From a virus, in IMG/VR virus record IMGVR_UViG_3300009034_000021, positions 1 through 64,000 of that record: a stretch of DNA of 64,000 nucleotides. One strand, written 5' to 3'. Positions 3,905-23,126 of this stretch are shown one piece after another (the stretch's first letter is position 1; every line of letters begins with the position of its first letter). The translations under genes and the position numbers were made by a program. The notes below the pieces were generated by a model, which saw only the letters and a list, made by a program, of their open reading frames with translations, was not told where the DNA came from and searched no databases.

Positions 3905-4380
3905 ACCAAGATCTGCCAACAAATGCCAATGAAATACTGGCTAGCGCCACGCCAGATCAAATTAAGTGGGTAGTGGCTCGTTTGACTAGCAAAACGGATC
4001 GAGAGGCTGCTAAATCAATTGGTGTTCATCCATCTACTGTCAGCAAGTGGCCCAACAAAGCTAAGCTTTATGAGGCTGTTAGTATTCTACTCCGTGAGCC
4101 AGTTGAGACCGCCTTAAAAATTTTGCAAGAGGCAGCGATAGATGCAGCCAACGTTTTGGTGGATGAATTAGGGCACAAAAACAAACTACGTGCCGCTGAT
4201 AGCATCTTAGATCGAATTGGTCTGCGAGGAGTGCAAAAACAAGAAATCAGCGGGCCTGGTGGTGGACCCCTCGTGATAGGAAACGTCACCCTCAATGACA
4301 AACAACGCGCTGAGGCCGTCCAGCAACTACTCGGCCAATTTCCTGAAATCGCTGCTGGAGGCTTACCTGAAACCGAATAA
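3898..4380 (+). CDS. terS: Terminase small subunit
   Basis: A 160-aa protein with an N-terminal helix-turn-helix (DREAAKSIGVHPSTVSKW, about residues 37-55), a helical middle and an acidic tail, as in small terminases that bind the packaging site. It starts at an ATG overlapping the lysin stop by 7 bp and lies directly before the large subunit. The call rests on the HTH plus position rather than family recognition alone. Confidence 0.8.
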   Translation: MVNQDLPTNANEILASATPDQIKWVVARLTSKTDREAAKSIGVHPSTVSKWPNKAKLYEAVSILLREPVETALKILQEAAIDAANVLVDELGHKNKLRAADSILDRIGLRGVQKQEISGPGGGPLVIGNVTLNDKQRAEAVQQLLGQFPEIAAGGLPETE

Positions 4381-6910
4381 TGCATTGTGGCTTCCTTTGC
4401 CGGGACCACAATTGGATGCACTCGTTTCGCCGGCCGATGAACTATTTTTCGGCGGAAGTGCCGGCGGGGGCAAACTCCTGAGCGTCGATGCCGTGGTCTG
4501 GACCCCATTTGGCCCTAAGCGTCATGGCGAGTTAGCGGTTGGTGATCAGGTGTGTAATCCTGATGGCAGCATTGCTCGTGTAATCACAGTGAGCCATTAT
4601 CGGAATGTGCCTCTATATCGGGTGACTTGCATAGATGGTGCTTCTGTATTGGCCGGAGCCAATCATAATTGGTTGGTGAAGATTGCCAGCGTGCGATTCA
4701 AGGCTCAACGTAGGATGTTCAACAATGAATCTAATTCGTTTGATGATCCTATAATACGAGCACGGGTAATGACGACCGCTCAACTCAAAGAATGTGTTGA
4801 TCGCGCTTATGAAGCTCAGCGGCAGGGCAAGCGACCTTATTGGCCTTTGCTTCCATTGACTCAGCCGGTCACCATGACAGTGAGCCATCGTTACCCTGAT
4901 GGGGTGTGGCCGATTGATCCCTATGTGCTTGGTGTTATTTTGGGTGATGGGCATATTGTAAAAAAGGTAAGTTTGACCACGTCCGATTTGTCAATCTCGG
5001 ATGCATTTACACGGGAAATGCATCGGTTAGGCGCGAGGGTTGTGCGTGATGATAGAGAAGGCAATGCAGCTTGGCAACTCAGGGTCAATGGTGCCACTGG
5101 AGTTGTACGGGCCCTACAGAAGTTAGATTTACAAGGTTGCCGTTCAGAATCCAAGTTTGTTCCTGAATCCTATAAGCGTGCCTCGGTGGACATGCGATGG
5201 GCGATGTTACAGGGTTTAATGGATACAGATGGCACCGCCGATTTCCGTGGACATTGTTCATTCTGTAGTGTGTCAAACAAGCTCGCGCTAGATGTCCAGT
5301 GGTTGGCTCGCAGTCTTGGATTTAAGGCTACTTTGTTTGAGAAAGAACCATTTTATCTCGGCGATGATGGACGCAGAATACATTGTCAATTGGCATATCA
5401 AGTTTATATCCAAGGAAAGGATACGGCGCGTTTGTTCAGACTGGAGCGCAAAAGTTCTCGTTGTCGTCCGTATAATGGTGGTTTCAGTCAGCCAATGCGT
5501 CGTGTGGTTGGAGTGGAGCTTGAGGATGAAAGCAATGCAGTATGCATTGGAGTTGATCATCCCAATGGACTTTATCTTACCGATGATTTTATCGTCACTC
5601 ATAACACTGACCTTTTGTTAGGCACGGCGATGCTGGCCCATAAGAAATCGATCATCTTCCGTCGTGAGCACGCCCAACTTACCGGCGTGGATAGTATTAT
5701 TGAGCGCAGTCGGGAATTGCTCAATGACGTGGCACGGTTCAACGGTCAAACTAATATATGGCGGGATATTCCCGGCGGCCGGATGCTAGAGTTTGGGGGT
5801 GTTCAACGCGAGCACGACACGAACAAATACAAGGGTAAATCGCACGATCTCAAAGCCTTTGATGAGGTTTCCGAATTTACTGAGTCTCAGTACCGGTTCT
5901 TAATTGGCTGGGCCAGGACGACGGACCCAAATCAACGTGTTCGGGTCATCGCCACGGGCAATCCACCTACCCACGTTAGAGGAGAATGGGTAATAAAATA
6001 CTGGGGCCCTTGGTTAGACAGCCAACACCCTCACCCAGCACGGCCTGGTGAACTGCGCTGGTTCGCTATGATAGACGGCGCAGACGTGGAGGTTGAGAAT
6101 GGCGAGCCATTTCAGCATAATGGTGAAATCATTAAGCCCAAAAGTCGGTCGTTCATACCAGCGAAATTGAGTGATAATCCCTATCTAGCGAATACCGACT
6201 ATGCCACCGTACTTCAGAACCTGCCTGAGCCGCTGCGTTCACAGTTGCTCTATGGCGATTTCAATGTCGGGGTAACAGACGACCCATGGCAGGTGATACC
6301 GACCGAATGGGTCAGACTGGCCTTTGAGCGATGGAAACAGCGAAAAAAACCAGATGTGCCACTTGCCGCCATTGGCGCCGACATAGCACGTGGCGGAAAA
6401 GACCAACTGGTTATCAGCGAGCGATATGATAACTGGTTCGCGCCATTAAAAAAGTATCCTGGCAAATCTGTCCTGGATGGGCCAGCAGCGGCGGCCCTAG
6501 TCGTCAAAATTCCAGGCAGCGCCGGCGCGTGCATCAACGTAGACGTGATAGGCATTGGTTCATCGGCCTACGATTCGTTAGCCAGCCAAAATTCAAACGT
6601 CGTGGCTCTCAACTTTTCTGAGGCGACGACAGCCAGGGATAGAAGTGGCCGGCTGAAAATGCGCAATGTCAGGGCCGAGGCATATTGGGGGATGCGCGAG
6701 GCATTAGACCCTGAGCTAGGCGACGACTTGGCTTTGGCGCCCGACAACGAACTCTTGGCCGACTTGACGGCGCCGAGATGGAAGTTAACGACGTCAGGTA
6801 TACTAATTGAAGAGAAAAAGGCCATTGCCGAACGGTTGGGCCGTTCGCCTGATTGTGGCGACGCGGTCGTCATGGCGCGCATGGGACAGAGGGGAGTATT
6901 TTTTGGCTAA
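4295..6910 (+). CDS. terL: Terminase large subunit containing an intein
   Basis: An 871-aa precursor. The first 60 residues end in the Walker A sequence FFGGSAGGGK. A 377-aa intein follows, and the mature protein resumes with TDLLLGTAM, restoring GGGKT. The ATPase acidic motif is LKAFDEVSEF (near residue 520). The RNase-H-like nuclease has GADIARGGKD (near 693), VDVIGIGSSAYD and DCGDAV (near 852). It cuts and pumps DNA into the prohead. The ATG used overlaps terS by 86 bp; a later start such as the TTG near 4,392 is possible, since the first ~30 residues are not obviously conserved. Confidence 0.95.
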   Translation: MTNNALRPSSNYSANFLKSLLEAYLKPNNALWLPLPGPQLDALVSPADELFFGGSAGGGKLLSVDAVVWTPFGPKRHGELAVGDQVCNPDGSIARVITVSHYRNVPLYRVTCIDGASVLAGANHNWLVKIASVRFKAQRRMFNNESNSFDDPIIRARVMTTAQLKECVDRAYEAQRQGKRPYWPLLPLTQPVTMTVSHRYPDGVWPIDPYVLGVILGDGHIVKKVSLTTSDLSISDAFTREMHRLGARVVRDDREGNAAWQLRVNGATGVVRALQKLDLQGCRSESKFVPESYKRASVDMRWAMLQGLMDTDGTADFRGHCSFCSVSNKLALDVQWLARSLGFKATLFEKEPFYLGDDGRRIHCQLAYQVYIQGKDTARLFRLERKSSRCRPYNGGFSQPMRRVVGVELEDESNAVCIGVDHPNGLYLTDDFIVTHNTDLLLGTAMLAHKKSIIFRREHAQLTGVDSIIERSRELLNDVARFNGQTNIWRDIPGGRMLEFGGVQREHDTNKYKGKSHDLKAFDEVSEFTESQYRFLIGWARTTDPNQRVRVIATGNPPTHVRGEWVIKYWGPWLDSQHPHPARPGELRWFAMIDGADVEVENGEPFQHNGEIIKPKSRSFIPAKLSDNPYLANTDYATVLQNLPEPLRSQLLYGDFNVGVTDDPWQVIPTEWVRLAFERWKQRKKPDVPLAAIGADIARGGKDQLVISERYDNWFAPLKKYPGKSVLDGPAAAALVVKIPGSAGACINVDVIGIGSSAYDSLASQNSNVVALNFSEATTARDRSGRLKMRNVRAEAYWGMREALDPELGDDLALAPDNELLADLTAPRWKLTTSGILIEEKKAIAERLGRSPDCGDAVVMARMGQRGVFFG
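4475..5605 (+). mobile_element. Class-3 intein with LAGLIDADG homing endonuclease, inside terL
   Basis: It encodes 377 residues between Walker A K60 and T438 of the precursor. Residue 1 is Leu (LLSVDAVVWTPFG), not Cys/Ser/Ala. Class-3 inteins instead use a W-C-T set. Here W is in block B (GANHNWLV), C in block F (NAVCIGVDHP) and T in block G (IVTHNT), with the C-terminal HN and Thr as +1 residue. Two dodecapeptide-type motifs, YVLGVILGDGH and MLQGLMDTDGTAD, mark a LAGLIDADG endonuclease with both acidic residues kept, so homing activity is plausible. The intein sits in the most conserved residues of TerL. Confidence 0.93.
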
Positions 6911-7097
6911 GCGAATTCTGTTGTCAATCTCAGCATTGCCATTCTATAGCCTCGGCTGGCTGGTAGGACAGGTTATCAAACTGTGTCATTGGATACGTGA
7001 TGCATTTCGGGCTGGGTATATAAAGACGAAAAGGACTGGGCACATGGCCAATTTTCAGGTGGACGATGGCCACGAACAGGTAAATTATGATCGTTGA
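6903..7097 (+). CDS. Small single-span membrane protein
   Basis: Starts at a TTG inside the end of terL, preceded by GAGGGGAG. It encodes 64 aa with one hydrophobic segment (ILLSISALPFYSLGWLVGQVI) and a polar tail. Its stop overlaps the portal start by 11 bp. Function unknown. Confidence 0.55.
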   Translation: MAKRILLSISALPFYSLGWLVGQVIKLCHWIRDAFRAGYIKTKRTGHMANFQVDDGHEQVNYDR

Positions 7098-8667
7098 CGA
7101 GATTAAGGCAATTCAGAAACGCGAGTCATCTCAGCTCTGGCATGGCTACCCGGCCAAGGCCGCCCCGTTCTCTTGGCCCACCTGGAGAGAGGGTCGCCCG
7201 CAATGGAAACTCATAGACTACCAGGCCTACGTTGAGGAAGGTTTCAACCTCAACAGCCTAGTCTATGAGAGTATCATGTACAAAGTGCGGGCACTGCAAC
7301 AGGTGCTACTGCGGGCCTACAAAGGAAGCATGGAGCATCCTGAGTTGCTGGATGTCGATCATCCATTGGCGAAACTCATAGCGCGGCCTAATCCACATCA
7401 AAGTTTCGTTGAATTCCAGGGCCAATCAATCGTCTACTTGAATCTATCAGGCAACAACTATCTTTTGATGGACAGGCCGAAAAGTGGCGGTTTGCCAGAG
7501 GCGATGTACAGTTTACGACCAGATAGGGTGTTTGTTGTACCTGGGAAGCAAAAACGCGGTCAGGCCGGACTCAGAGGCTATCTATACGTCCCAGAAGGGA
7601 AATCGGCGTGGTCGGGCTGGGATGCGCGTCGGCGGGTGGACGCGTTACGAGAAGGTGAGGCCGTACCGATTGCTCCACAAGACATAATGCATACCAAGTT
7701 GCCCAACCCCGGCGATCCGCTGGAAGGCCTGGGCGACGGTTTGCCACCTCTCTCGCCCAGCGCGCGTTCGGTAGACGTGGATAACAAAGTGACACATTTT
7801 CTCAAGTTGTTCTTCGATAAAGGCGTCATCGTACCTGGCCTGTTACAATTTGAATCACCCCTGACCGATCCTATCATGTCCAGGGTTCGCGAGCGCTGGA
7901 AGGAAATTTACGGTGGCTACGAAAGCTGGGCTGAGGAGATTGGTATACTTGACCAGGGCGGAAGTTACAAACGTATTGGGTTGACTTTCGAGGAGATGGG
8001 CTTTGGACAACTGGACGAACGCAACGAATCCCGTGTGTTGGGCCCGTTCGGTATACCGCCGATTTTGGTAGGGACTCGTATTGGCCTGGCTCATGCTACT
8101 TATTCCAATTATCAGATAGCTCGTCTGGCTTGCTGGGAAGACACCCTTGTGCCAGAAGTGATGTTGTTTGAGGTGGATTATCAATATTATCTCCAGGGCG
8201 ACGATGGAGAGTTCGTGGCCTATGACTACAGCAAAGTCCCAGCGTTCAGGGAAATCCGCAACGCGGCCTGGGAGCGGGCGAGCGGTGGCGTGAGTGGTGG
8301 ATGGGTGACGGTAAACGAAGGACGTGCAGAGGCAGGCTTGCCAGCAGTAGAAGGTGGCGATGTATTCTTGCGTGGTGTGACGGTGATACCTGAGCCGGCG
8401 GAAACGCAGGAATTTGCCGAACCAACGACGGAACGAACCGAAGAAGGCGCAGCGGAAGCCGAGGCCGATGAACGTAAAGCATGGCAACAGATAAAGGCTG
8501 GGGATAATGGGTCTGACAGCCAGACAAAAGCAACGATTCCTAACGGGCTTCGACCGCCGAGCGTTGGGCTGGGAGAAGGCGTTCGCCAGAGCAATGGAGA
8601 AGGCGATGTTGGCCAACAAGCGGGCGTTGCTGAAATTGTTGCGGGCGGCCAAGTCGTTCAAAGCTGA
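7087..8667 (+). CDS. Portal protein
   Basis: A 526-aa protein with features of HK97-type portals: VYESIMYKVRALQQVLLRAY near residue 60, HPLAKLIARPNP near 97, and the QDIMHTKLPNPGDPLEGLGDG block near 200. Later comes a QLDERNESRVLGPFGIPPIL segment near 300. It forms the ring through which DNA enters. The position right after TerL is typical. The last ~53 codons overlap the next gene in another frame, and this tail (rich in G, E, Q, S) looks unconstrained. Confidence 0.88.
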   Translation: MIVDEIKAIQKRESSQLWHGYPAKAAPFSWPTWREGRPQWKLIDYQAYVEEGFNLNSLVYESIMYKVRALQQVLLRAYKGSMEHPELLDVDHPLAKLIARPNPHQSFVEFQGQSIVYLNLSGNNYLLMDRPKSGGLPEAMYSLRPDRVFVVPGKQKRGQAGLRGYLYVPEGKSAWSGWDARRRVDALREGEAVPIAPQDIMHTKLPNPGDPLEGLGDGLPPLSPSARSVDVDNKVTHFLKLFFDKGVIVPGLLQFESPLTDPIMSRVRERWKEIYGGYESWAEEIGILDQGGSYKRIGLTFEEMGFGQLDERNESRVLGPFGIPPILVGTRIGLAHATYSNYQIARLACWEDTLVPEVMLFEVDYQYYLQGDDGEFVAYDYSKVPAFREIRNAAWERASGGVSGGWVTVNEGRAEAGLPAVEGGDVFLRGVTVIPEPAETQEFAEPTTERTEEGAAEAEADERKAWQQIKAGDNGSDSQTKATIPNGLRPPSVGLGEGVRQSNGEGDVGQQAGVAEIVAGGQVVQS

Positions 8668-10285
8668 AGTCAGTTGGTCAAAAGTCGAGCGTGATTGGGA
8701 TGAATACTGGACTCAATTCGCCGGCGAGGAATGGCGAAGGGCATTCATGCCAGTGCTACGAGGGATAATCACGGCACAGGATGAAAGCATCAACACTACG
8801 TTTGGGATAGAGTTTAACGTAAGGAACCTGTTCAGCGAGGCATACCTGCACGATACCGACTTTGGCTATTGGTTTGAGAATTACGTAGATACATTTTCTA
8901 AACCAGTACTAGAGACGACAAAGAAAGACCTGCGGGACTTGCTGTTGCAAGCACAACAGAACGGCTGGACGATTGAGCAGATGCGAGAACAACTTGACCT
9001 GAATTGGGACAAGTATCTCGATCCAAAATTCACGTTGGAAGGTCGTGGGTTGACCGAAGAAGAACGGGATTGGTTCGAGGAACGCAATCCACGTTACCGT
9101 AAAGACTTGATAGCGCGTGACCAAACGATGCGGGCCAGCAACACGGGTGGGTATTATCTCTATCGCGCCTGGGGCGCGCCGATGAAAGAATGGCTGGCGA
9201 CGGGAGACGCTCGCACGAGAGATACACATTTGGCAGCATGGCAGATGTACAGCGAGGGAGGCAATCCGGGACCGATCCCGATGGAGATACCGTTCAAGGT
9301 CGGCGGGTTCAGTTTGATGTACCCTGGCGATCCGTCTGGGCCGCCGCAGGAGTCAATCCAGTGCCGGTGTACGACGCTGCCATTCTATCCTGAGTTTGCG
9401 GGGACGGAAGAGGAGGTGGCACAGGCGCGGGCGGGGATGGAGGCGGAGATTGGGCGGCGGGAGGGGGAACAAAGGAGGCACAGGAGAGGAGAACCTTGGC
9501 GTGGAGTAGCAGGACAAATACCAGTAGGGGAAGATCATACTACTGAGTTCATGGAAAAGTGGTTTACGGAAGGATTAGAAATAACACAGAATTGGCGCGA
9601 TGCCCCAATTAGCGCCCAGGGACGTGCCAAAGATGAGTTAGTCAGGGCGATTTCCGAGCGAAGCGGCATACCATATGAGAGCGTGAACAAAATTATTAGA
9701 CAGTGGGCACAGACCTCCAATGACGATGACATGCGATCCTTGGCGATGCAAAAAGCAGCAGTGGAACACTTTGGAGTTCCACTATCTGATTTTTCAAAAG
9801 GCAAAATTGATCTCATTTTACAAAAGGTGAATGATTCGTTGGGATATGGTGTTACTTTTGAAGAATTATATGAATTGGGGATTGAGCAACAACGTATACG
9901 TCCTAGATACTCTCCTTTGATGGAAAATGAGCAATTAAAAACAGTTTTGGGAGCAATGTACGAGAATACCCAAGAACGATTAGCGGCAGCGGGATTTGGG
10001 CCAGGAACTACTATCAGAATGAGGCGGGGCGTATACTTGCCAACGGAGGTTACGAAGGATTGGGAAGTAGGAGATACTGTACCTATCGAGGGCAACGCGA
10101 TTGAAAGCTGGTCAATAGGCCCAGATATTTCGGCGCGTTTTGGTGGCACGATTTTTGAAATGGACGTGCCGGTGGAGATGATCGTCGGCTCGGCGCGCTC
10201 TGGCTATGGTTGCTTAACTGAGGGGGAATTTGTCATCCTGGGCAGCACGCCGAGTGAGGCAAAATTACTGAGAGTTGGAAAATGA
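8507..10285 (+). CDS. Mu-F-like minor head protein fused to an ADP-ribosyltransferase domain
   Basis: A 592-aa protein. Residues 1-290 look like the SPP1 gp7/Mu gpF head-morphogenesis family, including RDQTMRASNTGGYYLYRAWGA near 205 and the cysteine motif ESIQCRCTTLPFYPE near 285. Residues ~450-592 resemble an R-S-E ADP-ribosyltransferase: Arg in TIRMRRGVYLP, the S-x-S element in AIESWSIG, and the E-x-E catalytic pair in CLTEGEFVIL. Such fusions could deliver an enzyme into the host with DNA. The ATG at 8507 overlaps the portal gene by 161 bp; an internal ATG at 8597 is an alternative start. Confidence 0.8.
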   Translation: MGLTARQKQRFLTGFDRRALGWEKAFARAMEKAMLANKRALLKLLRAAKSFKAEVSWSKVERDWDEYWTQFAGEEWRRAFMPVLRGIITAQDESINTTFGIEFNVRNLFSEAYLHDTDFGYWFENYVDTFSKPVLETTKKDLRDLLLQAQQNGWTIEQMREQLDLNWDKYLDPKFTLEGRGLTEEERDWFEERNPRYRKDLIARDQTMRASNTGGYYLYRAWGAPMKEWLATGDARTRDTHLAAWQMYSEGGNPGPIPMEIPFKVGGFSLMYPGDPSGPPQESIQCRCTTLPFYPEFAGTEEEVAQARAGMEAEIGRREGEQRRHRRGEPWRGVAGQIPVGEDHTTEFMEKWFTEGLEITQNWRDAPISAQGRAKDELVRAISERSGIPYESVNKIIRQWAQTSNDDDMRSLAMQKAAVEHFGVPLSDFSKGKIDLILQKVNDSLGYGVTFEELYELGIEQQRIRPRYSPLMENEQLKTVLGAMYENTQERLAAAGFGPGTTIRMRRGVYLPTEVTKDWEVGDTVPIEGNAIESWSIGPDISARFGGTIFEMDVPVEMIVGSARSGYGCLTEGEFVILGSTPSEAKLLRVGK

Positions 10286-11798: not shown

Positions 11799-14700
11799 AT
11801 GATGGAAATTGCCAAAATTACACCGGAATCTATACGAGAGGAGAGCAACGAGGCTCTATTGAACTTGCATCGTCATTTGCATGGTTTATGGTCTCAGCAC
11901 TTCGCTGATGGCGAGAGGACTACAAACGGTCTGACGAAAGAAGACTTAGTTAATGCCCATGTATTCGTGCGTGATGATATGGCACGACGGAAGATGCAAC
12001 ATGCAAGCGAACCACGAAATGGTTTGGATAAAGCGACACGTGAATTGAGCCGTAAGGGACTGGACGACGTGCTGAGCGAATCGGCAGAGGACACAATACT
12101 TGTCCCGGCCATCGTCACCATCACCGGTTCGGTGGGCGAGGGGCGCGAGAAGGCAGAAGACCTCGATGTACTGATACGGGCTGACCGGATCGAACAGGCA
12201 GGGAATCCCGGCTTTTTGATACGGGCAGAGGATATCGAGTTGCCAGTGCGAAAGCGATTTGATCCTGAGAAGACTGGGCTTGAAGTTCATTGGAATACAA
12301 ATCCGCAGGGTCCGCACGCGGATTATCTGCACATGGCCGATCTGGTATTACGGTGGCGGAGCCCGGTGGAACAAGTTTCGGTCAAGGCTGGCCGCCGTGT
12401 GCGTCAGGTGCGATTGGCACAGATACAAGGATTATTAACACGACTCAAGGATTTAGAACAAGAGATCGAAGGTTTTCTAGAGTGGGCCGAATATCGCGAT
12501 GTGCCGTTGATTACAGTCGTAGACGGACATTACATCCAACGTGAGGGAAAGCAGACACCGCTTGTACCGACAGAGTTCAAGCCAGCGATAGACGAGAAAT
12601 GTGTCTGTCCGGAATGTAAACACGAAAGTGGGCCGGCGGAAGGCAAAACTTGCATTGAGACGAAATGTCCAGAGTGTGGAGCATTGATGAAAGCCAAGGA
12701 GCCCACAGCGGTAGAGCCGGCGAAAGCAGCCGAGATAAAAGTCGTCGCTCCCGGCAAGCGATACTCAGTAATGAAGCCAAGCATGACAGGCGTGACGGAG
12801 TATTTTTCAACGGATGAACTGTGGGGCTGGACGCAAAAGAAATTGGAAGGCGATCATGCGCTATTGGGCAGTCCGAAGATAGACGGTTTTAGGGCAGTCA
12901 TCTCAAAGGATGGCGACACCTCAGTGTGGTTTGAAGATAGCAAAGAAACGAAGACGCCGCCAGGTATGCCTGAGTTGACGGGGCCGTCGTTCGTGATCGA
13001 GGGTGAATTCACGGCAAAACGCGGCGATAAATGGTTGGCCCGGACACAACTGGCCGGCGTCGTAGCAGGAAAGACGGAAGCGAGGCCACATTTTTGGCTA
13101 TACGACCTGCTTTATCACGATGGTGAGGACGTCAGCCAACGACCTTTCACCGAACGCCTGACTCTATTGAAAAAACTCAAATTGCCAGAACGCCACTTTA
13201 CGGTACTGGCTCAGCGTTCGGTACGCGGGCAACGAGACTTAGGGGCAGTGGGTAAATGGGCTGCTGGCCGGCCGCTATCAGAAGGACTGTTTCTGCGGGT
13301 TGCTGATGCAAAGTATGCATTTGGATCCAGTGACAGTTGCGCCAAACTCAAGACGGTGGCGGAACTAAAAGTCCAAGTCATTGATTCAGAGCGCAAGAAA
13401 AACGGAATCGTGTACCACGTTGGCCTTCGCGAGCCAGGCAAGTTCAGCAATGTGGCTGGAGAACTACTGGACTTGGGTAACACGTTCGTCGGCCCAGATC
13501 AGAGAGTAAAGGCCGGCGATACACTGAACGTTGTCTGTGAGGAATTAGTCATCGGCAGCAAGGACAGTAGACCAATTCTGCTCTGGGGCAAACCGACTGT
13601 GCAGGGCCCTGATAAATCACGACCGGCGTATACGACTGAACAGGCTATCAGCCTGGCACGGCGAAAGCACATCCTCAAAGAGGAGATAGCCACATCAGAA
13701 ACAAAAGCGGCAAAGTTGGAGGAGACACGAGGAGAACGGGCTGGGCGATCCTGGAAAGATAACTGGGCTAAATTAGTGATAAAGGGTGAAGGTAAATTCA
13801 TCCTGCACGGGCATTTTCCGGCCCTGACGGAAGAAGAATCAAAGTGGGACCTTCAAAAGTTGCTGGCGGCCAACAAGCAATATCATACTGATTTGAGGAA
13901 CGAGGCGCCGAGGCCGAATGGAGCATGGGGTTTCACGAACTATGAGGGGCGTGGCAGTAAGGTAGGGCCAAAGAGTACGCGGTTGTACAAAATGCCATCA
14001 AACAAACCGATGCGCGGTAGTTTTAAATTAGAACAGCCTCGCGCCTGGTTAACACATGCCAAGAACAAGCCAGAAGTGCACGAAGACGTCGGAGTCACAG
14101 GGAAGGACTGTGCAAAATTTTTTGCTTTGGACTGGGGACGTTACAAATTGACTTTCGCACGCGAGCATGCCTTCGAGATAATTTACGACGGCGCAAAAGG
14201 CGTGATGAACGGACGATATCAGATCAATTACGTCCCCGTAGGAGATGAGCGCGCATGGATGATATCACGGCCAGAAACGCAGGATGAGATTTACGCCGAC
14301 GAACACAAACTCGACACAGTACGCGATGACGTAAGGAGAAAAGGCCAGCAATGGTTGTTCTGGCGTGAGTCGTTGGGTGCTCCGCTACAGAAAATAAATG
14401 TGCGGAGTAGCAAGGAGAGCAAAATGCATGAAATGAATTTGAACGGTGAACTCACTGAGTTGGAGCTTCTGGATTTAGGCAGAACGGTGAAAGCCGCAGC
14501 CACACTCAGGTCTGCGCTGGAGGCGGCGTTAAAACGAATCGATAAAGAAGATGCCGAAGGCGCGATTGGACGGTTGCGGGCTGCGTTAGACAAAGTTAAT
14601 GATTACGGCTATGGCTATGGCTCACCGACCGGCGAGAAGGCAGTCAGTGCGAGTGCGATCAAAAAAGAGTTGAATCGTTGCATCGCTGGACTGGAGGATG

Positions 14701-15485
14701 ACGAACCTGACTATGGTAAAGCAAAAACCGTCCTTCAGAAATTGTTGGGTCGGCTGGGTTATGGCTCGTCTGATAAGGCGACTTCAGTAGATGCACTGAA
14801 GAAACAACTTATGCAGGTCATAGGTGAACTCAATCGTGACGAGCCGGATATGGAAAAAGTGGCCAGTGCTCTGCAAGGAGCCTTGGGCAAACTTGGCAAA
14901 AGTGAAGCGAAGGCAGCCGAATTAACAGCGGTAAAGATGCTGCGTGAGGAAAATGGCGGTGCGGTAGTCGGCGGGCACCTGTTGTTGTGGGGTAGCCCAG
15001 GGCAGAAGGACCTAGACGGCGACTACTTTACGCCGGAAACCAATCTGTGGCTTGATGAATACAAGTCAGTGCCGGCGATGTTTCATCACGGGCTTGATGC
15101 GAAAATCGGCCTGACGGCCATCGGCAGACGGCTTAAGGCAGCCAAAGATGACATTGGCGTATGGGTCGAAGATTGGTTGGATAAAAGCCACAAATACTGG
15201 GCTTTCGTCGAGAAGCTGTTAAAAGCCGGAGCATTGTATTATTCACCCGGATCGGCGCCACATTTGGTAGAACGGGAAACGGATGGGCGGCTAAAATCTT
15301 TCGCCGTGGTAGACGACACCCTGACACCCATCCCGTGCCAATATCGATTACGTCCCGTATCCGAAATCCAGGCGTCCTACAAGGCGGTTGGATTGGAGTT
15401 GCCAGATGTAGCGTTGGACAAAGGTGGACTGAAAGAAGAAATCGAAAAAACCGAGTCGGAACTGAAACGACTCATGGAGGTGTAA
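11799..15485 (+). CDS. Multidomain protein: nucleotidyltransferase-like, ATP-dependent ligase-like and prohead protease
   Basis: A 1,228-aa protein counted from MMEIAKITPE. Residues ~100-190 resemble a minimal nucleotidyltransferase (TITGSVGEG, D121-x-D123). Four CxxC-type cysteines (268-293) form a zinc ribbon. Residues ~325-600 show ATP-dependent ligase motifs: PKIDGFRA (K360), FVIEGEF (E401), PHFWLYDLLY, SEGLFLR (E495), AKLKTV (K516/K518), then an OB-like stretch. Residues 696-700 (HTDLR) recall the HYDLR motif of LigD 3'-phosphoesterases. Residues ~900-1040 hold three ~45-aa repeats. Residues ~1044-1190 look like an HK97/XkdF-type prohead protease (FHHG near 1097, ALYYSPGS with S1149). 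It directly precedes the capsid gene, where the protease is expected. Ligase activity is inferred from motifs only. Confidence 0.8.
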   Translation: MMEIAKITPESIREESNEALLNLHRHLHGLWSQHFADGERTTNGLTKEDLVNAHVFVRDDMARRKMQHASEPRNGLDKATRELSRKGLDDVLSESAEDTILVPAIVTITGSVGEGREKAEDLDVLIRADRIEQAGNPGFLIRAEDIELPVRKRFDPEKTGLEVHWNTNPQGPHADYLHMADLVLRWRSPVEQVSVKAGRRVRQVRLAQIQGLLTRLKDLEQEIEGFLEWAEYRDVPLITVVDGHYIQREGKQTPLVPTEFKPAIDEKCVCPECKHESGPAEGKTCIETKCPECGALMKAKEPTAVEPAKAAEIKVVAPGKRYSVMKPSMTGVTEYFSTDELWGWTQKKLEGDHALLGSPKIDGFRAVISKDGDTSVWFEDSKETKTPPGMPELTGPSFVIEGEFTAKRGDKWLARTQLAGVVAGKTEARPHFWLYDLLYHDGEDVSQRPFTERLTLLKKLKLPERHFTVLAQRSVRGQRDLGAVGKWAAGRPLSEGLFLRVADAKYAFGSSDSCAKLKTVAELKVQVIDSERKKNGIVYHVGLREPGKFSNVAGELLDLGNTFVGPDQRVKAGDTLNVVCEELVIGSKDSRPILLWGKPTVQGPDKSRPAYTTEQAISLARRKHILKEEIATSETKAAKLEETRGERAGRSWKDNWAKLVIKGEGKFILHGHFPALTEEESKWDLQKLLAANKQYHTDLRNEAPRPNGAWGFTNYEGRGSKVGPKSTRLYKMPSNKPMRGSFKLEQPRAWLTHAKNKPEVHEDVGVTGKDCAKFFALDWGRYKLTFAREHAFEIIYDGAKGVMNGRYQINYVPVGDERAWMISRPETQDEIYADEHKLDTVRDDVRRKGQQWLFWRESLGAPLQKINVRSSKESKMHEMNLNGELTELELLDLGRTVKAAATLRSALEAALKRIDKEDAEGAIGRLRAALDKVNDYGYGYGSPTGEKAVSASAIKKELNRCIAGLEDDEPDYGKAKTVLQKLLGRLGYGSSDKATSVDALKKQLMQVIGELNRDEPDMEKVASALQGALGKLGKSEAKAAELTAVKMLREENGGAVVGGHLLLWGSPGQKDLDGDYFTPETNLWLDEYKSVPAMFHHGLDAKIGLTAIGRRLKAAKDDIGVWVEDWLDKSHKYWAFVEKLLKAGALYYSPGSAPHLVERETDGRLKSFAVVDDTLTPIPCQYRLRPVSEIQASYKAVGLELPDVALDKGGLKEEIEKTESELKRLMEV

Positions 15486-15486
15486 T

Positions 15487-16770
15487 ATGAACTGGAAAGA
15501 AATGTTGGCACAAGCCAACAAACTGATGGAGGAGGTCAAGGCAGTTGATGTGGCCGAGGCGTCCGCCGAAGAGCTAGAGCAAATCGGGGAGAAACATGCC
15601 GAGGCAAAGGCTTTGATGGCGAAAGCCGGACAGCTTAAGGAAATTGAACAGACTGCGCTTGAACTCCAGCAAACAGTAGAGGCAGAACAGCAAGGTGATT
15701 CACCGGTTGAGGGCAGCGAGTTCAAAACCTGGGGCGATTTCCTGTTTGCTACGTGGCTTTGGACGGCGCATCAGAAACGTGATCCACGTCTCAAAGTTTT
15801 CAAGGACGATGCACCGTCGAGTAAACCAGAAGTCAAAGACATGGTAGAGAGCACCGGCGCGGCGGGTGGATTCCTCGTGCCTGTGGAGTTCCTGGCCGAG
15901 CTTCAGGCGGCTATGGCTGAAAACGCTATCGTCAGACCACGAGCGACCATCCTGCCGATGCGACGCAGGCAACTTGATGTGCCGGTGCTTGACCAGACCG
16001 GGACCACGGCTGGCATACCTCATTGGTTCGGCGGAATGCAGTTTTACTGGGCTGAGGAAGCGCACGAAAAGACATTGAGCGATCCGACGTTCCGCAAAAT
16101 CTCGCTGGTGGCACACAAGATGATCGGCTACACGCGAGCCAGTGATGAATTGCTGGATGATTCGGCCATCAGCCTGGAGGCGTTTCTGAGTGGACCGCTT
16201 GGTTTTGCTGGCGGTGCGACGTGGATGGAAGACTACGCTTTCTTGCAAGGCACCGGTGCCGGGCAGCCGCTCGGCGTCATTCCCGCTACGGCCACGATCA
16301 ATGTCGCCCGTGCGACGGCGGGCACGATCACTTACGCAGACATTTGCAACATGTTAATGAATTTCCTGCCGACCGGTAAAGGTGTGTGGGTCATCAGCCA
16401 AAGTGCGCTGAGTACTGTGGTGCAAATCTCTGGCCCAGCGGGAAATCCTAGTTACGTCTGGCAGCCAAACGCACGGGAAAAGACTCCCGCTTATCTATTT
16501 GGCTATCCTGTCATCTGGTCGGAAAAGTCACCGGCTATGGGTACCGCTGGCGACATCCTGCTAGCCGACTTTCAGTATTATCTTATCGGGGATCGCCAGG
16601 CGACGACAGTAGAATCGACCAAATTCGACCGCTGGCGATATGACGAGACTAGCTGGCGCATGGTGCACCGCGTGGATGGCCAACCGTGGTTAAGCCAACC
16701 CCTAACCTATCAGGACGGCGCGACGCAAGTGAGTCCATTCGTCATTCTGGCCGGTGCCGGGGCGAGCTAA
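15487..16770 (+). CDS. Major capsid protein, HK97 fold
   Basis: A 427-aa protein. Residues 1-70 are coiled-coil-like (AEELEQIGEKHAEAKALMAK), the usual delta/scaffold region removed by the protease encoded upstream. The rest carries HK97-type signatures: STGAAGGFLVPVEF, VRPRATILPMRRRQLDVPV, DYAFLQGTGAGQPLGVIP and a late DRWRYDETSWRMVHRVDGQP. It starts one base after the protease stop region with AGGTG just upstream. Confidence 0.92.
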   Translation: MNWKEMLAQANKLMEEVKAVDVAEASAEELEQIGEKHAEAKALMAKAGQLKEIEQTALELQQTVEAEQQGDSPVEGSEFKTWGDFLFATWLWTAHQKRDPRLKVFKDDAPSSKPEVKDMVESTGAAGGFLVPVEFLAELQAAMAENAIVRPRATILPMRRRQLDVPVLDQTGTTAGIPHWFGGMQFYWAEEAHEKTLSDPTFRKISLVAHKMIGYTRASDELLDDSAISLEAFLSGPLGFAGGATWMEDYAFLQGTGAGQPLGVIPATATINVARATAGTITYADICNMLMNFLPTGKGVWVISQSALSTVVQISGPAGNPSYVWQPNAREKTPAYLFGYPVIWSEKSPAMGTAGDILLADFQYYLIGDRQATTVESTKFDRWRYDETSWRMVHRVDGQPWLSQPLTYQDGATQVSPFVILAGAGAS

Positions 16771-17264: not shown

Positions 17265-18074
17265 ATGAGTCGCTGGATACGTCTCAAGTCAATGCAATTC
17301 ATACGCCGGAAACGATACCAGGCCGGCGAGTGGATTTGCGTTGGCAATCAATTAGCTGAAAAGTTGATCAGTCAGGGAGAGGCTGATAGTGGGCCGACGA
17401 TGACGGCGGAAATCGCTGACGATGCTGGAGTCGTGTACGTGGTGTATGGAGATAGAGCAGTTAAAGAGGCCAGAGACTCAGTAAAATCGATAAAAGGATT
17501 GCATCCCAGTTTGCCTGTCGTCATCGTATCAGACGATGATCCAGGCATCAAAGAGACGCAATTTGTCTATCACGAGGACACCGATCCCGGAGCGCGGGCG
17601 GCGAAACTGGCGACATACGAACTTTCACCGTTTGAACGAACACTGTACCTCGACGCTGACACGGTGGCGATATCATCTCTGGCCGGTGGATTTAACCTGC
17701 TGCAAAACTTTGACGTGGCCTTGGCAATCGATCTCACGACAGCGGCGCAGGGTGTGTTGGCTGGAATGCTCACGTACACAGAAGAGGAAAGGTCGGCAAC
17801 GAGAGAGGTGTTGCCAACACCACATCTGACACAATATGCCTGCGGTGCGATTTTCTTTCGTAAAAGTGACGAAACGGCAAAGTTATTTCAGGCCTGGCGT
17901 GCTGAATGGTTGCGCTTTCGGTGGCGCGATCAGGGTGCCTTTCTGCGGGCACTTTATCGGACACCGATACGGCATGTAGCGTTGCCAATCGAATGGAATG
18001 TCTCAGGACGACGGCGCAAGGCGATGGTGATACATCACCGTTGGGGTACGGCACGGAGGCCGGGGCAAGGATGA
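17265..18074 (+). CDS. Glycosyltransferase with N-terminal phage adaptor module
   Basis: A 269-aa protein. Residues 1-40 (RYQAGEWICVGNQLAEKLIS) form a module also seen at 24,549 and 29,123. Residues ~55-269 resemble a GT8-like nucleotide-sugar transferase: VVYVVYGDRAVKEARDSVKS start and FERTLYLDADT with the metal-binding DxD. Donor and acceptor are unknown. First gene of a 12-kb glycan-modification cassette; the stop overlaps the next start as ATGA. Confidence 0.75.
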   Translation: MSRWIRLKSMQFIRRKRYQAGEWICVGNQLAEKLISQGEADSGPTMTAEIADDAGVVYVVYGDRAVKEARDSVKSIKGLHPSLPVVIVSDDDPGIKETQFVYHEDTDPGARAAKLATYELSPFERTLYLDADTVAISSLAGGFNLLQNFDVALAIDLTTAAQGVLAGMLTYTEEERSATREVLPTPHLTQYACGAIFFRKSDETAKLFQAWRAEWLRFRWRDQGAFLRALYRTPIRHVALPIEWNVSGRRRKAMVIHHRWGTARRPGQG

Positions 18075-18718
18075 CACGAGGTGTGGTGTACGTTGCCTAT
18101 GGCGAAAATGCGAAACGAGAGGCTAAAATATCAGCGCAATCTCTCAAGGGGCAATGTGATCTGCCGGTATTCGTAGTAGATGAAACGGTATTGCCGGGTG
18201 AATTTTTCGGCGTACCGGCCGAGGGGCATCGCGCCGGCAAGAGAGTATTCTTGCCTGGCCTGGTCAAGCCAAAGTTATGGGAACTAACACCTTTTGAACA
18301 TACGCTATATCTCGACGCCGATACACGAGTCATGGCAGACCCATCGCCGTTGTTCAAATTACTAGAAGCGGGCTGGGATATGGGACTGGCACCTGGTCAG
18401 GCAGCCAGATTCGTGAGAGAGACGAATTTTGGCCCAAGAGAACGTGGGATCACTGTTTCAGAACTCGGCACAGGACTTTTGCACTATTATAATTCTGGAG
18501 TCATCCTATGGACCAAAAACGACAAAATGAGGGCCTTCTTTGATAGATGGGGCGGGGAGTGGCAACGGTTCCGCAATTGGGACGAACAGATGGCCTTGAT
18601 GCGAGCGTTATGGAAAACCAGTGTTAAGTTCGTCACATTGGCACAATGCTGGAACCAACGAGGAGAACAGGACGGAGCATTGATATATCACCCAACAGGA
18701 AGCCACCGAACGTGGTAG
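18071..18718 (+). CDS. Glycosyltransferase, GT8-like
   Basis: A 215-aa paralogue of the preceding catalytic domain (GVVYVAYGENAKREAKISAQ, FEHTLYLDADT). It lacks the adaptor module. The ATG overlaps the upstream TGA. The DxD and a late WNQRGEQDGALIYH are intact, so activity is plausible. Substrate unknown. Confidence 0.75.
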   Translation: MTRGVVYVAYGENAKREAKISAQSLKGQCDLPVFVVDETVLPGEFFGVPAEGHRAGKRVFLPGLVKPKLWELTPFEHTLYLDADTRVMADPSPLFKLLEAGWDMGLAPGQAARFVRETNFGPRERGITVSELGTGLLHYYNSGVILWTKNDKMRAFFDRWGGEWQRFRNWDEQMALMRALWKTSVKFVTLAQCWNQRGEQDGALIYHPTGSHRTW

Positions 18719-18775
18719 AATATTGTCTCATTGTAATGCTCCAGCAACTATATCAACGTCATGCTTGGAGAGATA

Positions 18776-19402
18776 ATGGACAACGATACACCTCAGTTAT
18801 ACGATGAAGGCGAAGAGCAATGGAAGACCAAGTTGCACCTCGGCTGCGGCAATATCTATTTGATAGGCTACGAGAATATCGACGTAGTCGGTGTTCTGGC
18901 CGATGAGCGTCCTGATTTAGTAGAGGCGAACAGGACGAATATCAAGAGTTATTACGGGCGGCGGACGGCATACACCGATATTCACCATATTGTGCCAAGG
19001 GCAGGTTATGTCGTAGACCGGCGAATGTGCATGACAAATCTTGGGAATGAGATTGGTTCAGTCAACAAAATTGTGTGTATTCAGGCATTAGAACATCTAC
19101 AACCTAATGATGGTGTAAGAGCGCTGACGCATTGGCATGATCTACTCAAACAGGATGGAATATTGATGATATCTGTCCCTGACACGTCTGAGACCGTGGA
19201 AATGTTGCTCGACGAATGCACTAGGGATTTCGCTATCCAACACCTGGCTGGGACACGAACGGATCAACATAGTTATCACCGTAATCATTTTACACGGCTA
19301 TGTTTGTCCGCTCTTTTAACGTTGCATGGTTATGGAGAAATTGAATTCTTGTCAAACTTTCATCGTTATCCAGCCATTGTGGTAAGGGCGAAAAGATTAT
19401 AG
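18776..19402 (+). CDS. SAM-dependent methyltransferase, class I
   Basis: A 208-aa protein. TKLHLGCGNIYLIGYENID is motif I, and CIQALEHLQP with DGILMISVPD follows as motifs IV-V. I chose the ATG at 18776 because GGAGAG lies five bases upstream, inside the longer frame that would start at 18761. Probably a sugar or small-molecule methylase of the cassette. Confidence 0.75.
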   Translation: MDNDTPQLYDEGEEQWKTKLHLGCGNIYLIGYENIDVVGVLADERPDLVEANRTNIKSYYGRRTAYTDIHHIVPRAGYVVDRRMCMTNLGNEIGSVNKIVCIQALEHLQPNDGVRALTHWHDLLKQDGILMISVPDTSETVEMLLDECTRDFAIQHLAGTRTDQHSYHRNHFTRLCLSALLTLHGYGEIEFLSNFHRYPAIVVRAKRL

Positions 19403-19439
19403 TAGACAAGACTATTTTTGAAAGGAGTGATAAGATACA

Positions 19440-21110
19440 TTGTCCAAAATAGCCGGTTTTACGCTGACTAAGACACCTCACCAACCCCAAGCTCCACTGT
19501 GGTTGATCAAATATCCTCATGTGACGACTAAACATCTCAATTGTAACGAATGGTCATTATTTTTATGGGGTTGCGGAGACTTGACACAATTTATTTCCGA
19601 TAACACGATCATCGTCGGCTACTCAGATATTGATATGGCGACGTTGGATGTGTACCCGTTGCAAAATCGAGGATTGATCATCAGGCTAGACGAACATGCT
19701 ACAATCACGAACGATGCATTGGGAATGATGCAGGTATTCTACGGTAGCAAGGACGGTGTGCCGTGGATTTCCACGTGCGAGGAATCGGTTATTCGGGGAT
19801 TGGGCAGAGTAACATTGGGGCCAGGGCGACTGGCCGGATATCTAATGTTACAAAGCACCTCCGCTTCGTTGACACTATGGAGTGAAATCGATAAACTTTA
19901 TGCTAACTCTTTACTGAGTATTTCGCCTGATGGCAATTTCCGGCAAAGTTTTCAGGAACCACTGAATTTCACGCCGATGAAAAAGGATTACGTCACGCAA
20001 ATGGCGAGCGTGTTGCGCGAGACAGTGCATCACTACACTGATCCGCTGGACGATGTGATCCTGATGTTGTCTCATGGCCATGATTCTCGACTCATTCTGT
20101 GCAACATGCTGAGGCCAGAACGGGTGCATGCTAGAACTTTCCCCTTGTCGCATCCGGCAGGACGAGCCCACGACGTCGTCATCGCGAAAGAATCGGCGCG
20201 ACTGGCTGGAGTGACGGATCACAAGGTTATTGATCTAGGACAGAACCAACTGCGTGATTGTACACGGCCAGCGACGGAATTTTATGGTACACCGTTGGGC
20301 GCGGTGCAGATTTACCTCTACGACGTATGCGAACGAGTAGGGCGCGAAAACCCATCGTGGCCTATCATAACGGGATTGAACGGTGACGAACACGCAGGTA
20401 TCGCGTTGTTTCGTTCTCGTAACAAATTACGCCAGGAAAGTGATCCGGCCGATCGGTTCGTATCCGGCTGCTATTCTTGGGTCAAATCGTGGCTACCAAG
20501 AGACCTGGATGCCGGCCTGACGTTTGACTGGCGCGGCGCATTGAAACCGATACGCGAAATCTGGACGCATATTTGGCAAAATACTGAGGGTGATGATCTA
20601 ACGAGGCACGCACATCTGATTCATACCCGCAATAGAGGCAATCAGTATATAACCTACGCCTGGCAGGGATGTGACTTGTATGGTGGGCTTGTGGGCCCCA
20701 TCTATAACGACCGACATTATGTTGAATTCATGCTGTCCTTGCCACACGAGGTATTGAACGAGGGCACGTTCGATTTTGAGGTTCCGATGGCCGGCACGAT
20801 ACGTGAGGTACGGACGGGGCAGGTTGAACTCTTTCAACGATATTTCCCAGAACATTATCCTTATGCCGGACTACCACTCGACGCCTTCGATTGGGCGAAC
20901 CGGCTTGATCCGGACGCATTAGCGAAAGCAAAGGGAGCCGCATTGTGGCCGTTGGTTCCTAATGGATCAAAACCAAGTCATGGGTTTTTTAATGCAGCGA
21001 AGTTCAAGGAACTCTATCGCAAGGCGGTAAATGGTGACATGCGGAGTTATTATCTGCTTAACTCAGTGCAACCGTTGGCATGGGCGATTGAAAAGGGATA
21101 TGTCCAGTGA
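19440..21110 (+). CDS. Asparagine-synthetase-like ATP-pyrophosphatase protein
   Basis: A 556-aa protein resembling AsnB-family amidotransferase/synthetase proteins. The N-terminal half looks like a degenerate Ntn-type domain with the expected Cys-2 missing (MSKIAGF). The C-terminal half has a PP-loop-like ILMLSHGHDSRLIL. The usual SGGxDS is altered to SHGHDS, so ATP chemistry is uncertain. TTG start with AAGGAG twelve bases upstream. In surface-polysaccharide clusters such proteins can amidate sugars; that role is inferred. Confidence 0.6.
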   Translation: MSKIAGFTLTKTPHQPQAPLWLIKYPHVTTKHLNCNEWSLFLWGCGDLTQFISDNTIIVGYSDIDMATLDVYPLQNRGLIIRLDEHATITNDALGMMQVFYGSKDGVPWISTCEESVIRGLGRVTLGPGRLAGYLMLQSTSASLTLWSEIDKLYANSLLSISPDGNFRQSFQEPLNFTPMKKDYVTQMASVLRETVHHYTDPLDDVILMLSHGHDSRLILCNMLRPERVHARTFPLSHPAGRAHDVVIAKESARLAGVTDHKVIDLGQNQLRDCTRPATEFYGTPLGAVQIYLYDVCERVGRENPSWPIITGLNGDEHAGIALFRSRNKLRQESDPADRFVSGCYSWVKSWLPRDLDAGLTFDWRGALKPIREIWTHIWQNTEGDDLTRHAHLIHTRNRGNQYITYAWQGCDLYGGLVGPIYNDRHYVEFMLSLPHEVLNEGTFDFEVPMAGTIREVRTGQVELFQRYFPEHYPYAGLPLDAFDWANRLDPDALAKAKGAALWPLVPNGSKPSHGFFNAAKFKELYRKAVNGDMRSYYLLNSVQPLAWAIEKGYVQ

Positions 21111-21814
21111 AAGACCATCAAACGAAGGCCGAATTTGAGCGTATTTATTTCTATCACATACGTAAAGCCGGTGGACAAAGTATCTATCATGCCATCTTGG
21201 AAAAATTATGTGGAGTTGATTCGTTCACGATTGAAAATTGGTTGACACGGGCGAACATAATGTTCTGCGATGGAAAACCTATCATAGGTTGGGACGATAA
21301 ACAGATTAATCGTGGCGATTTTTATTTTGCCTTTTCGCATCACGCGATGCACGAGTTGTTGCCTATGCCTGATGATACCTTTGCCTTTACTTGCTTTAGA
21401 GATCCGGTCCCGCGAGTCGTCTCACACTATCGCATGTTGAAGAGCTTTCGGGAGATGGAAATACGGGGTGACGTGCTGAAAGCAGAAGCCCAGTGGGCAA
21501 AAGACAATTTTAGTGAGTTTTTAGACAATTTACCCCAGCGACACCTGATGAATCAATTGTGGATGTTCTCGGCAGAGTACGATCCGGAAGAAGCATTAGA
21601 AAATGCCAGCAAACTCTCGTACTTCTTTTTCCTAGACAAGTTCAGCGTTGGACTATCTAAACTATCGAATCTCATCGGAATAGAACTCGAAGAAAAGCAC
21701 ATCATGGTGTCCACGTCTGAATTCGCCATGAAGCCAGAGGAAGGCGAACGTTTACAAGAGTTGTTAATTCCTGAATACCAGTTTTACGAAGGATTGCAGG
21801 AACTATGGAAGTAA
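21107..21814 (+). CDS. Sulfotransferase-like protein
   Basis: A 235-aa protein. YFYHIRKAGGQSIYHAI corresponds to the 5'-phosphosulfate loop and FTCFRDPVPRVVSHYRM to the 3'-phosphate motif of PAPS-dependent sulfotransferases. GTG start overlapping the upstream TGA. It would add sulfate to a glycan. No PAPS-synthesis gene is visible, so the host would supply PAPS. Confidence 0.7.
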   Translation: MKDHQTKAEFERIYFYHIRKAGGQSIYHAILEKLCGVDSFTIENWLTRANIMFCDGKPIIGWDDKQINRGDFYFAFSHHAMHELLPMPDDTFAFTCFRDPVPRVVSHYRMLKSFREMEIRGDVLKAEAQWAKDNFSEFLDNLPQRHLMNQLWMFSAEYDPEEALENASKLSYFFFLDKFSVGLSKLSNLIGIELEEKHIMVSTSEFAMKPEEGERLQELLIPEYQFYEGLQELWK

Positions 21815-22449
21815 TCATCTTTGGTTCGGACAAGTACTTACGCGTCTTGATGCCAACGTTCACGACGTTCTATCGTCGTTTTTGGCCTGATAATCCGTGG
21901 CCAACGAGAGTAGTAAGCCAAACGGTGATCGTGGATGAGTTTCCGACCATCACGACTGGGCCTGATGAGAATTTTTCGCAGCAGGTACTCCGCTGGGCAG
22001 TGAAACAGAGAGACGAACCGTTTTTAATGTTACTGGACGATTACTTCTTGACTGAGCCAGTCAAAACCGACGTGTTAGTACATTGCTATAACGAGATGAT
22101 AGCTCACCCCGATATTGCACACATCAACGTCAAAGTGATCGGGAGCGCACCTTGGAATCAGCGATACGACGACTATCTAGGTGAGTTTGACAAAGAGGAG
22201 TGCAACTGGCTTTTTCAGAATCAGGCGGGCCTGTGGCGGCCTCAATTGTTGCGCAGTGTGACACGAGCAGACGAGGATGGCTGGCGCATGGAGAGAGATG
22301 GCAGCCAACGAGCAAAGACGTATCCCGGTCGGTTTTTGACAGTCTATGAAGACGCGATTGAATATGTCAACTATATGGCGCGTGCGGCGCCACGCAAGGA
22401 AGGTGTGGAGTGGCTGGAGAGGAACGGAATGGACCCGATCTATCCATAG
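21805..22449 (+). CDS. Putative glycosyltransferase, 214 aa
   Basis: Starts MEVIIFGSDKYLRVLMPTF and has FLMLLDDYFLTEPV, whose LLDD could bind metal. It is a paralogue of the gene at 23,842 (same order of FxxxF-WPDxPWP and LLDD motifs). The family is not certain. Overlaps both neighbours. Confidence 0.55.
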   Translation: MEVIIFGSDKYLRVLMPTFTTFYRRFWPDNPWPTRVVSQTVIVDEFPTITTGPDENFSQQVLRWAVKQRDEPFLMLLDDYFLTEPVKTDVLVHCYNEMIAHPDIAHINVKVIGSAPWNQRYDDYLGEFDKEECNWLFQNQAGLWRPQLLRSVTRADEDGWRMERDGSQRAKTYPGRFLTVYEDAIEYVNYMARAAPRKEGVEWLERNGMDPIYP

Positions 22450-23126
22450 TATTCGGAACATACAATCGAGTAAAGGTATTAGAGCAAGCCATAGAGATGG
22501 CCCGCAGTTCAGCGCATCCATTGAAAGTAGAGTTTATCATCGCTGATGGCGGGAGCACTGACGGAACGTTGGAATACCTACGCCGACAGCCTGACGTAAT
22601 TCTCATCGAGCAAGGCGGATTGTATGGAGCTTGCCAAGCAATGAACGAATGTTGCCGTTTGCCAAGTGCCGAGTTTGTGTGTCATCTGAATGACGACGCG
22701 CTGTGCATGGGAGACTGCCTCTACCAGGCACACAAATATCTAGTTGAACATCACGATGTAGGCCAGGTGGCATTGGCATTTAGAGACGTAGGCGCAAGCG
22801 ATCCGCGCTATCGGACGGGAATGATTTTAGATCGATATTACGCTAACTTTGGCATCACGCGACGTTGGTTGGGTGATTACGTCCAGTGGTTCAGCGGAGG
22901 TTATCTGACATACTCATGCGACCAGGAATTGTCCTTCAAAATCTGGGAATTGGGCTACGAGGTCGTGTTCTTGGGCGGTTGTCGAGTAGAACATCTGCGG
23001 GTGCAAGATAAACTGAGGGAGACGTGGAGAGACGATCACGGCGAACCTACGAAATTTCTAAATCGGTGGCGGGATAAAACGAAACATTTTCCCTGTTCGC
23101 CGACGGTGAGAGAGAAGGATCTGTGA
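22410..23126 (+). CDS. Family-2-like glycosyltransferase
   Basis: A 238-aa protein with a GT-A fold start (LSIVFGTYNRVKVLEQAIE), IADGGSTDGT and the metal site HLNDDALCMGD, then GDYVQWFSGGYLTYSCDQEL near the acceptor region. GTG start, overlapping the previous gene by 40 bp. Sugar donor unknown. Confidence 0.8.
   Translation: MAGEERNGPDLSIVFGTYNRVKVLEQAIEMARSSAHPLKVEFIIADGGSTDGTLEYLRRQPDVILIEQGGLYGACQAMNECCRLPSAEFVCHLNDDALCMGDCLYQAHKYLVEHHDVGQVALAFRDVGASDPRYRTGMILDRYYANFGITRRWLGDYVQWFSGGYLTYSCDQELSFKIWELGYEVVFLGGCRVEHLRVQDKLRETWRDDHGEPTKFLNRWRDKTKHFPCSPTVREKDL

Follow-up and report, generated by a model that had tools for sequence, protein, structure and literature searches.

A viral polyprotein that joins candidate DNA-repair domains to a head maturation protease

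Why should a DNA ligase share one polypeptide chain with the protease that matures a viral head? The question is raised by a gene in a stretch of 64,000 nucleotides (the window) from the IMG/VR contig IMGVR_UViG_3300009034_000021, whose full length is 71,298 bases. The original prediction described a single chain of 1,228 residues at this locus, and the reading frame and its coordinates were borne out (Table 1). In the alignment, the closest relative, L197 (IMGVR_UViG_3300005096_000526), begins at the residue that is aligned with the start of the window protein. Judged from its sequence, the chain is a DNA-repair toolkit, with polymerase β-like, ligase and 3′-end-cleaning parts, joined to a head maturation protease. 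The gene order in the window is terminase, portal, MuF, small genes, polyprotein and HK97-type capsid. The capsid start codon lies one base past the stop of the polyprotein, and the Shine-Dalgarno-like GGAGG of the capsid gene is found within the polyprotein gene. This position is the spot expected for a head maturation protease.

Table 1. Features of the polyprotein and of the surrounding head genes
Feature	Residues	Window positions	Strand	Key residues or evidence
Polyprotein gene		11799..15485	+	Intact ORF: ATG 11799, stop 15485, 1,228 aa; start codon backed by relative L197
Helical N-terminal domain	1-79	11799..12035	+	Common to the family
Pol-β-type nucleotidyltransferase	80-190	12036..12368	+	G110-S111, D121, D123, D181
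Zinc-ribbon-like insert	265-296	12591..12686	+	Two CPEC knuckles; sequence
ATP-dependent DNA ligase catalytic domain	318-520	12750..13358	+	K360, R365, E403, R415, E495, K516, K518
OB-fold domain of ligase	521-612	13359..13634	+	Strands at high pLDDT; family HMM covers aa 521-612
LigD-type 3′-phosphoesterase (PE)	629-880	13683..14438	+	H672, H696, D698, R700
Helical repeats linking cargo to protease	898-1036	14490..14906	+	Sequence comparison
S78-like head maturation protease	1041-1203	14919..15407	+	Conserved H1097 and S1149
Terminase large subunit		4295..6910	+	Pfam/PHROG searches; homing-endonuclease/intein-like insert
Portal protein		7087..8667	+	PF04860 1.3e-43
MuF head morphogenesis protein		8507..10285	+	PF04233 4.6e-7; phrog_2468 1.2e-31
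HK97-type major capsid protein		15487..16770	+	PF05065 2.4e-46

The ligase was recognized by profiles, predicted fold and catalytic residues. PF01068 matched residues 359-518 (1.4e-9, 38.4 bits against a cut-off of 26.2), the ligase family PHROG 114 matched residues 352-536 (4e-14), and the same stretch was matched by the NHEJ ligase models of NCBIfam. An HMM built from the window's own subfamily of relatives scored 335 bits, compared with 6.7 bits for the best of 1,000 shuffles. Fold prediction by segment, for which the original prediction had asked, matched residues 80-640 to ATP-dependent DNA ligases (Lig1, archaeal and T4 ligase) with E values from about 1e-12 to 5e-16, and the matches span about 380-400 columns, as fits the nucleotidyltransferase fold of a ligase plus the OB fold. 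Ligase motifs I, III, IV and V were located at K360, E403, E495-G496 and K516/K518, in agreement with the full set of ATP-ligase-like motifs that had been proposed. Among the aligned relatives K360, E495, G496 and K516 show little or no variation, and all four are retained in the window protein. K360 had been named correctly; the conserved motif III acid, first placed at E401, lies at E403, a column with E in 17 of 21 relatives, and the E401 column holds D in 15 of 21. An RNA ligase or a capping enzyme was ruled out, as the fold matches are predominantly to DNA ligases and the score with the capping profile, 15.1, lies below its cut-off of 29.6.

Upstream of the ligase, the N-terminus and nucleotidyltransferase together gave 162 bits with the HMM of the window's own subfamily (9.2 for the best of 1,000 shuffles), and the GS...DxD...D motif of the DNA polymerase β superfamily is present. 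In the alignment G110, S111, D121 and D123 are kept in 20/20 relatives and D181 in 15/21. With this score and the conserved GS-DxD, the nucleotidyltransferase identity suggested from motifs in the original prediction holds. When the nucleotidyltransferase profile was compared with the PDB, almost all matches were to DNA polymerase β, but at E values of 0.27-0.55, which are not significant. The domain is a small one and is not necessarily a polymerase. At the very N-terminus, PF03013 (Pyr_excise) weakly matches the equivalent of residues 1-79 in some relatives. The zinc ribbon that had been proposed was seen as two CPEC knuckles; its cysteines sit in a window-specific insert, which is missing from 22 of 24 relatives in the alignment.

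An HTDLR segment had been noted as reminiscent of the LigD 3′-phosphoesterase, and this resemblance extends to the whole domain. The PE HMM of the window's own subfamily scored 215 bits, compared with 5.1 for the best of 1,000 shuffles, and the residues of the His, His-x-Asp-x-Arg active site (H672, H696, D698 and R700) are conserved in 24/24 relatives. A model was calculated with AlphaFold2 from window residues 644-880 and 51 relatives (mean pLDDT 72.6, >90 in core parts). In Foldseek its only significant PDB matches were five LigD 3′-PE structures (3p43, 3n9b, 3n9d, 3p4h and 5dmp), with a TM-score of up to 0.79 on the target; the alignment for this model was drawn from the other of two subfamilies of relatives, which could bias the fold, but the subfamily HMM score does not depend on that alignment. 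PF13298 (LigD_N) gave no match to the window protein at E ≤ 1 and matched 3 of 23 scanned proteins, all from the other subfamily (best 1.4e-5). The PE profile of that subfamily does not detect the window PE, whereas the profile of the window's own subfamily does. If the enzyme domains had decayed and acted as a scaffold or spacer, large chains in the scaffold position and a variable set of additional domains would be understandable. However, ligase residues K360, E495 and K516, the four PE residues and the GS-DxD of the nucleotidyltransferase are almost invariant and are kept in the window, and we regard a purely structural role as very improbable. The repair module, three putative enzymes conserved together in the head gene block, is probably active.

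The cargo is followed by helical repeats and the protease. Three internal repeats had been described; repeats 2 and 3 are clearly alike, with 17 of about 37 residues identical and none of 5,000 shuffles as good, and repeat 1 did not reach significance in that test. Between the linker repeats and the N-terminus of the L197 protease-capsid protein a borderline similarity was found (1/2,000 shuffles). The repeats were also considered as copies of the capsid delta domain; this was dropped because 703 of 2,000 shuffles scored as high. No targeting sequence was found, the linker repeats being unlike capsid delta domains, and this counts against the capsid loading proposed below. The protease had been called XkdF-type and is here reassigned as S78-like. 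XkdF (PF14550) matched neither the window protease nor any of its 26 aligned homologues, and hhalign against the XkdF domains of the relatives gave a probability of 11%. Peptidase_S78 (PF04586) matched 17 of the 26 (best 7.9e-9), the window protease itself reaching 17.3 bits, below the cut-off of 21. H1097 and S1149 are invariant across the 26 aligned members.

Many homologues of residues 1041-1228 occur in viral contigs. The nearest stand alone directly before capsid genes and begin with N-termini that are short and variable; those further removed are long chains running on into what reads as capsid protein. ORFs of about 500-900 aa with homologues of the window protease (L023-L085) are consistent with protease-capsid fusions. 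A homologue of the S78-like protease also occurs in 183 Salinibacter phage records; in Salinibacter phage 5_12 (L007, positions 4057-6861) it forms part of a 934-aa protein annotated as hypothetical, with a long, unrelated N-terminus that is perhaps another cargo.

No ligase was present with the close protease homologues in 47 records, which at first suggested a one-off fusion, and the original prediction had likewise treated the fusion as a single oddity. Single-sequence searches with the ligase-PE part returned nothing from viral contigs and elsewhere only a weak phage ligase. Motif scans overturned this picture. Two scans for a pattern of H-x-D-L-R with W-G-F-T after it yielded 44 ORFs of the window's own subfamily, 30 of them distinct. 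For the other subfamily, a degenerate DNA pattern for the PE motif H.[WYF]RGK[ST].H.D[LF]R identified 30 viral contigs; with a profile search the set grew to 63 distinct proteins, the longest of 2,241 aa. The resulting counts, 93 distinct relatives in all, are lower bounds, with sampling limited to contigs that contain the motif. An XkdF protease lies in the same frame in 23 of the 30 and in 21 of the 63. Because the scan patterns contained no protease, this co-occurrence is not a selection effect. Most of the remaining seven ORFs of the window's subfamily are cut off by the end of a contig or seem to be truncated.

Members of the other subfamily consist of a GG/GS-DxD nucleotidyltransferase, ligase, OB and PE, often with a second PE domain. 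In a Pfam scan of 23 sequences (22 relatives and the window), the ligase was found in 18, XkdF in 5, a D12 methylase in 4 and Pyr_excise in 3; C5 methylase, ChaB and others were each seen once. Dam/Dcm-type methylases and Pyr_excise-like segments in the cargo of relatives are as expected of cargo that acts on DNA. Among L098, L089, L097, L107, L115, L095 and L106, the chain was seen to include further domains: C5 methylase, D12 methylase, metallo-β-lactamase fold, phosphoribosyltransferase and ChaB.

The surroundings of the relatives are equally regular. Among 48 records of the other subfamily, a portal was recognizable in 32, XkdF in 34 and a capsid match in 17; XkdF was in the same frame as the repair protein in 18, and in about 13 others its match started no more than about 600 bp downstream. 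Wherever it is visible, the order on one strand is portal, repair protein, protease, capsid, the exception being circularly permuted contigs. The same order is seen in the window's subfamily in L205, L237 and L257, with gaps of 0.8 to 2.2 kb. Together with L252 and L256 (all IMG/VR), these three resemble the window protein in domain order, size, gene position and a C-terminal protease; they differ from it in that their protease is XkdF (PF14550) and that the zinc-ribbon-like insert is missing in nearly all. A quick tree on the ligase-PE sequences, with several long branches outside the window's group, placed the window in a group of eight (SH-aLRT 97) that includes six XkdF fusions and the unfused L197. 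Since the window has an S78-like protease yet sits among XkdF-fused relatives, the sequences indicate at least two origins for the pairing of repair protein and protease, involving different protease families.

L197 is 48% identical to the window protein over residues 307-855 and 42% identical over the N-terminal 185 residues. Unlike the fused chain of the window, its repair protein is a separate gene of 737 aa, the start of which overlaps the preceding gene, in the portal position, by 14 bases. The next gene combines a PF25209 capsid with a region to which no fold was assigned and which is probably the protease. Gene boundaries thus move while the gene order stays. Fusion is therefore not required, as this separate gene and the many unfused members of the other subfamily demonstrate. 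The same mobility could mean that adjacent late genes readily join and separate and that the fusion as such is functionless: the repair gene is separate in L197, fused in L205 and L237 and joined to a different protease in the window, and in other cases the fusion partner of the protease is the capsid protein. Against such an operon accident, fusion is the rule among the distinct members of the window's subfamily, several of the others being truncated, across deep divergence, and the same pairing occurs with two protease families. We consider an accident quite unlikely.

When 84,980 prokaryotic genomes were scanned for the other subfamily, one contig was found, in a Dehalococcoidia MAG, and this subfamily therefore looks essentially viral. 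That contig and the archaeal virus ANMV-1 are the only host clues for the relatives. ANMV-1 is the one named virus found with such a protein (AJP62006, annotated as "ATP-dependent DNA ligase"). By the family HMMs, it shares the nucleotidyltransferase, ligase and PE domains with the window; it differs in belonging to the other subfamily, in having a second PE domain and in an ORF without protease. The word "ligase" is absent from the text of the ANMV-1 paper (PMC4372165). Directly before the ligase gene of ANMV-1 lies a gene annotated as "MutT-like phage hydrolase" (L194, KP703175.1, 1913-3193), which by eye is portal-like (DUF1073-like).

Other known proteins with related modules are bacterial LigD and the archaeal LigD-type 3′-PE (3n9b, 3p43), which have ATP ligase and 3′-PE modules as in the window. 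The window protein differs from LigD in its LIG-PE order, in a pol-β-type nucleotidyltransferase that replaces the primase-type polymerase, in the lack of Ku and in the attached head protease. Some mycobacteriophages use their own Ku together with host LigD for circularisation. As ligase and PE are LigD modules, a virion-borne ligase-PE-nucleotidyltransferase could join the ends of the injected linear genome in an NHEJ-like manner, replacing host LigD. Ku was found neither in the window's record nor in 48 related records (49 records in all), which speaks against classical NHEJ; no primase-type polymerase domain of LigD was among the window matches or the best family matches, and the nucleotidyltransferase is of the pol-β kind. 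This role is improbable enough to be given little weight.

The reading that we prefer, with a probability of roughly 45%, is that the product of the gene is a head-assembly polyprotein: its C-terminal protease would place the N-terminal repair enzyme in the prohead, where the enzyme would be cut free for delivery with the genome. With nucleotidyltransferase, ligase and 3′-PE in one chain, the enzyme could remove blocks from 3′ ends, attach a nucleotide and close nicks or short gaps. The protease part would carry it into the prohead. At maturation the targets of the protease would be the protease itself, the capsid protein and probably the linker, at about residues 880-1040. The repair part would then stay inside the capsid, be delivered with the genome and act on the viral DNA at the start of infection. 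A precedent is offered by the internal proteins of T4 and the ejection proteins of SPN3US, which are cut by the prohead protease, packaged in the head and ejected with the DNA (PMC7411985). These are separate proteins with targeting propeptides, whereas the proposed cargo of the window is fused to the protease. The recurrence of the pairing with two protease families, the placement between portal and capsid and the conserved catalytic residues strengthen the idea of capsid loading.

A repair enzyme in this place might instead serve before packaging. In the infected cell, at the portal or prohead, it would repair nicks, gaps and blocked ends of the replicated DNA that could otherwise stall packaging; the protease would only bring the enzyme to the assembly site and later free or destroy it. 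The gene adjoins the portal and terminase genes, ligation and 3′-end cleaning fit such a step, and delivery would be unnecessary. However, a cytoplasmic late ligase would do for this purpose and the protease fusion would be unneeded, and we hold this explanation to be unlikely. Capsid loading as preferred for the window would apply more widely: dozens of uncultured viruses with the fusion at the same genome place suggest that repair enzymes are loaded into particles. In its broadest form, which we put forward tentatively and with less confidence than the reading of the window itself, the idea would cover a large group of uncultured tailed viruses that infect bacteria and archaea. Their capsids would contain a DNA repair machine made as a single chain, able to clean 3′ ends, add nucleotides and ligate, and in some of these viruses supplemented by glycosylase-like or methylase modules. 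Synthesis as part of the head maturation protease, or next to it, would load the machine, which would be delivered along with the genome.

The domains are known singly; their combination appears to be new and the architecture, although widespread, undescribed. No description of a fusion between a repair enzyme and a head protease was found in the open-licence literature. Some large eukaryotic viruses are said to bring their own DNA repair into the cell; if the cargo is present in the virion, phages would do so too, and fusion to the protease would offer a general way of getting enzymes into capsids. A testable role is also provided for proteins that in many metagenomic viruses are annotated only as "ATP-dependent DNA ligase" or as unknown.

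Several other features of the window were recorded. Neither tRNA genes nor Rfam RNAs were found in it. The terminase insert, with Hom_end and LAGLIDADG_3 matches at residues 297-378 of that protein, is probably an intein. The MuF protein has a weak DRAT ADP-ribosyltransferase-like match at residues 471-563 (E 0.0019, under the cut-off), perhaps a MuF-linked effector. Positions 1450-2760 on the plus strand encode an IscB-like protein with RRXRR and HNH. Between the capsid and tail genes (17265-26349, plus strand), glycosyltransferase-, methyltransferase- and asparagine-synthase-like ORFs were identified by eye. On the minus strand, positions 55424-56791 encode an N4/N6 DNA methylase with a weak ParB-like N-terminus, and positions 60327-61631 a calcineurin phosphoesterase that is purple-acid-phosphatase-like.
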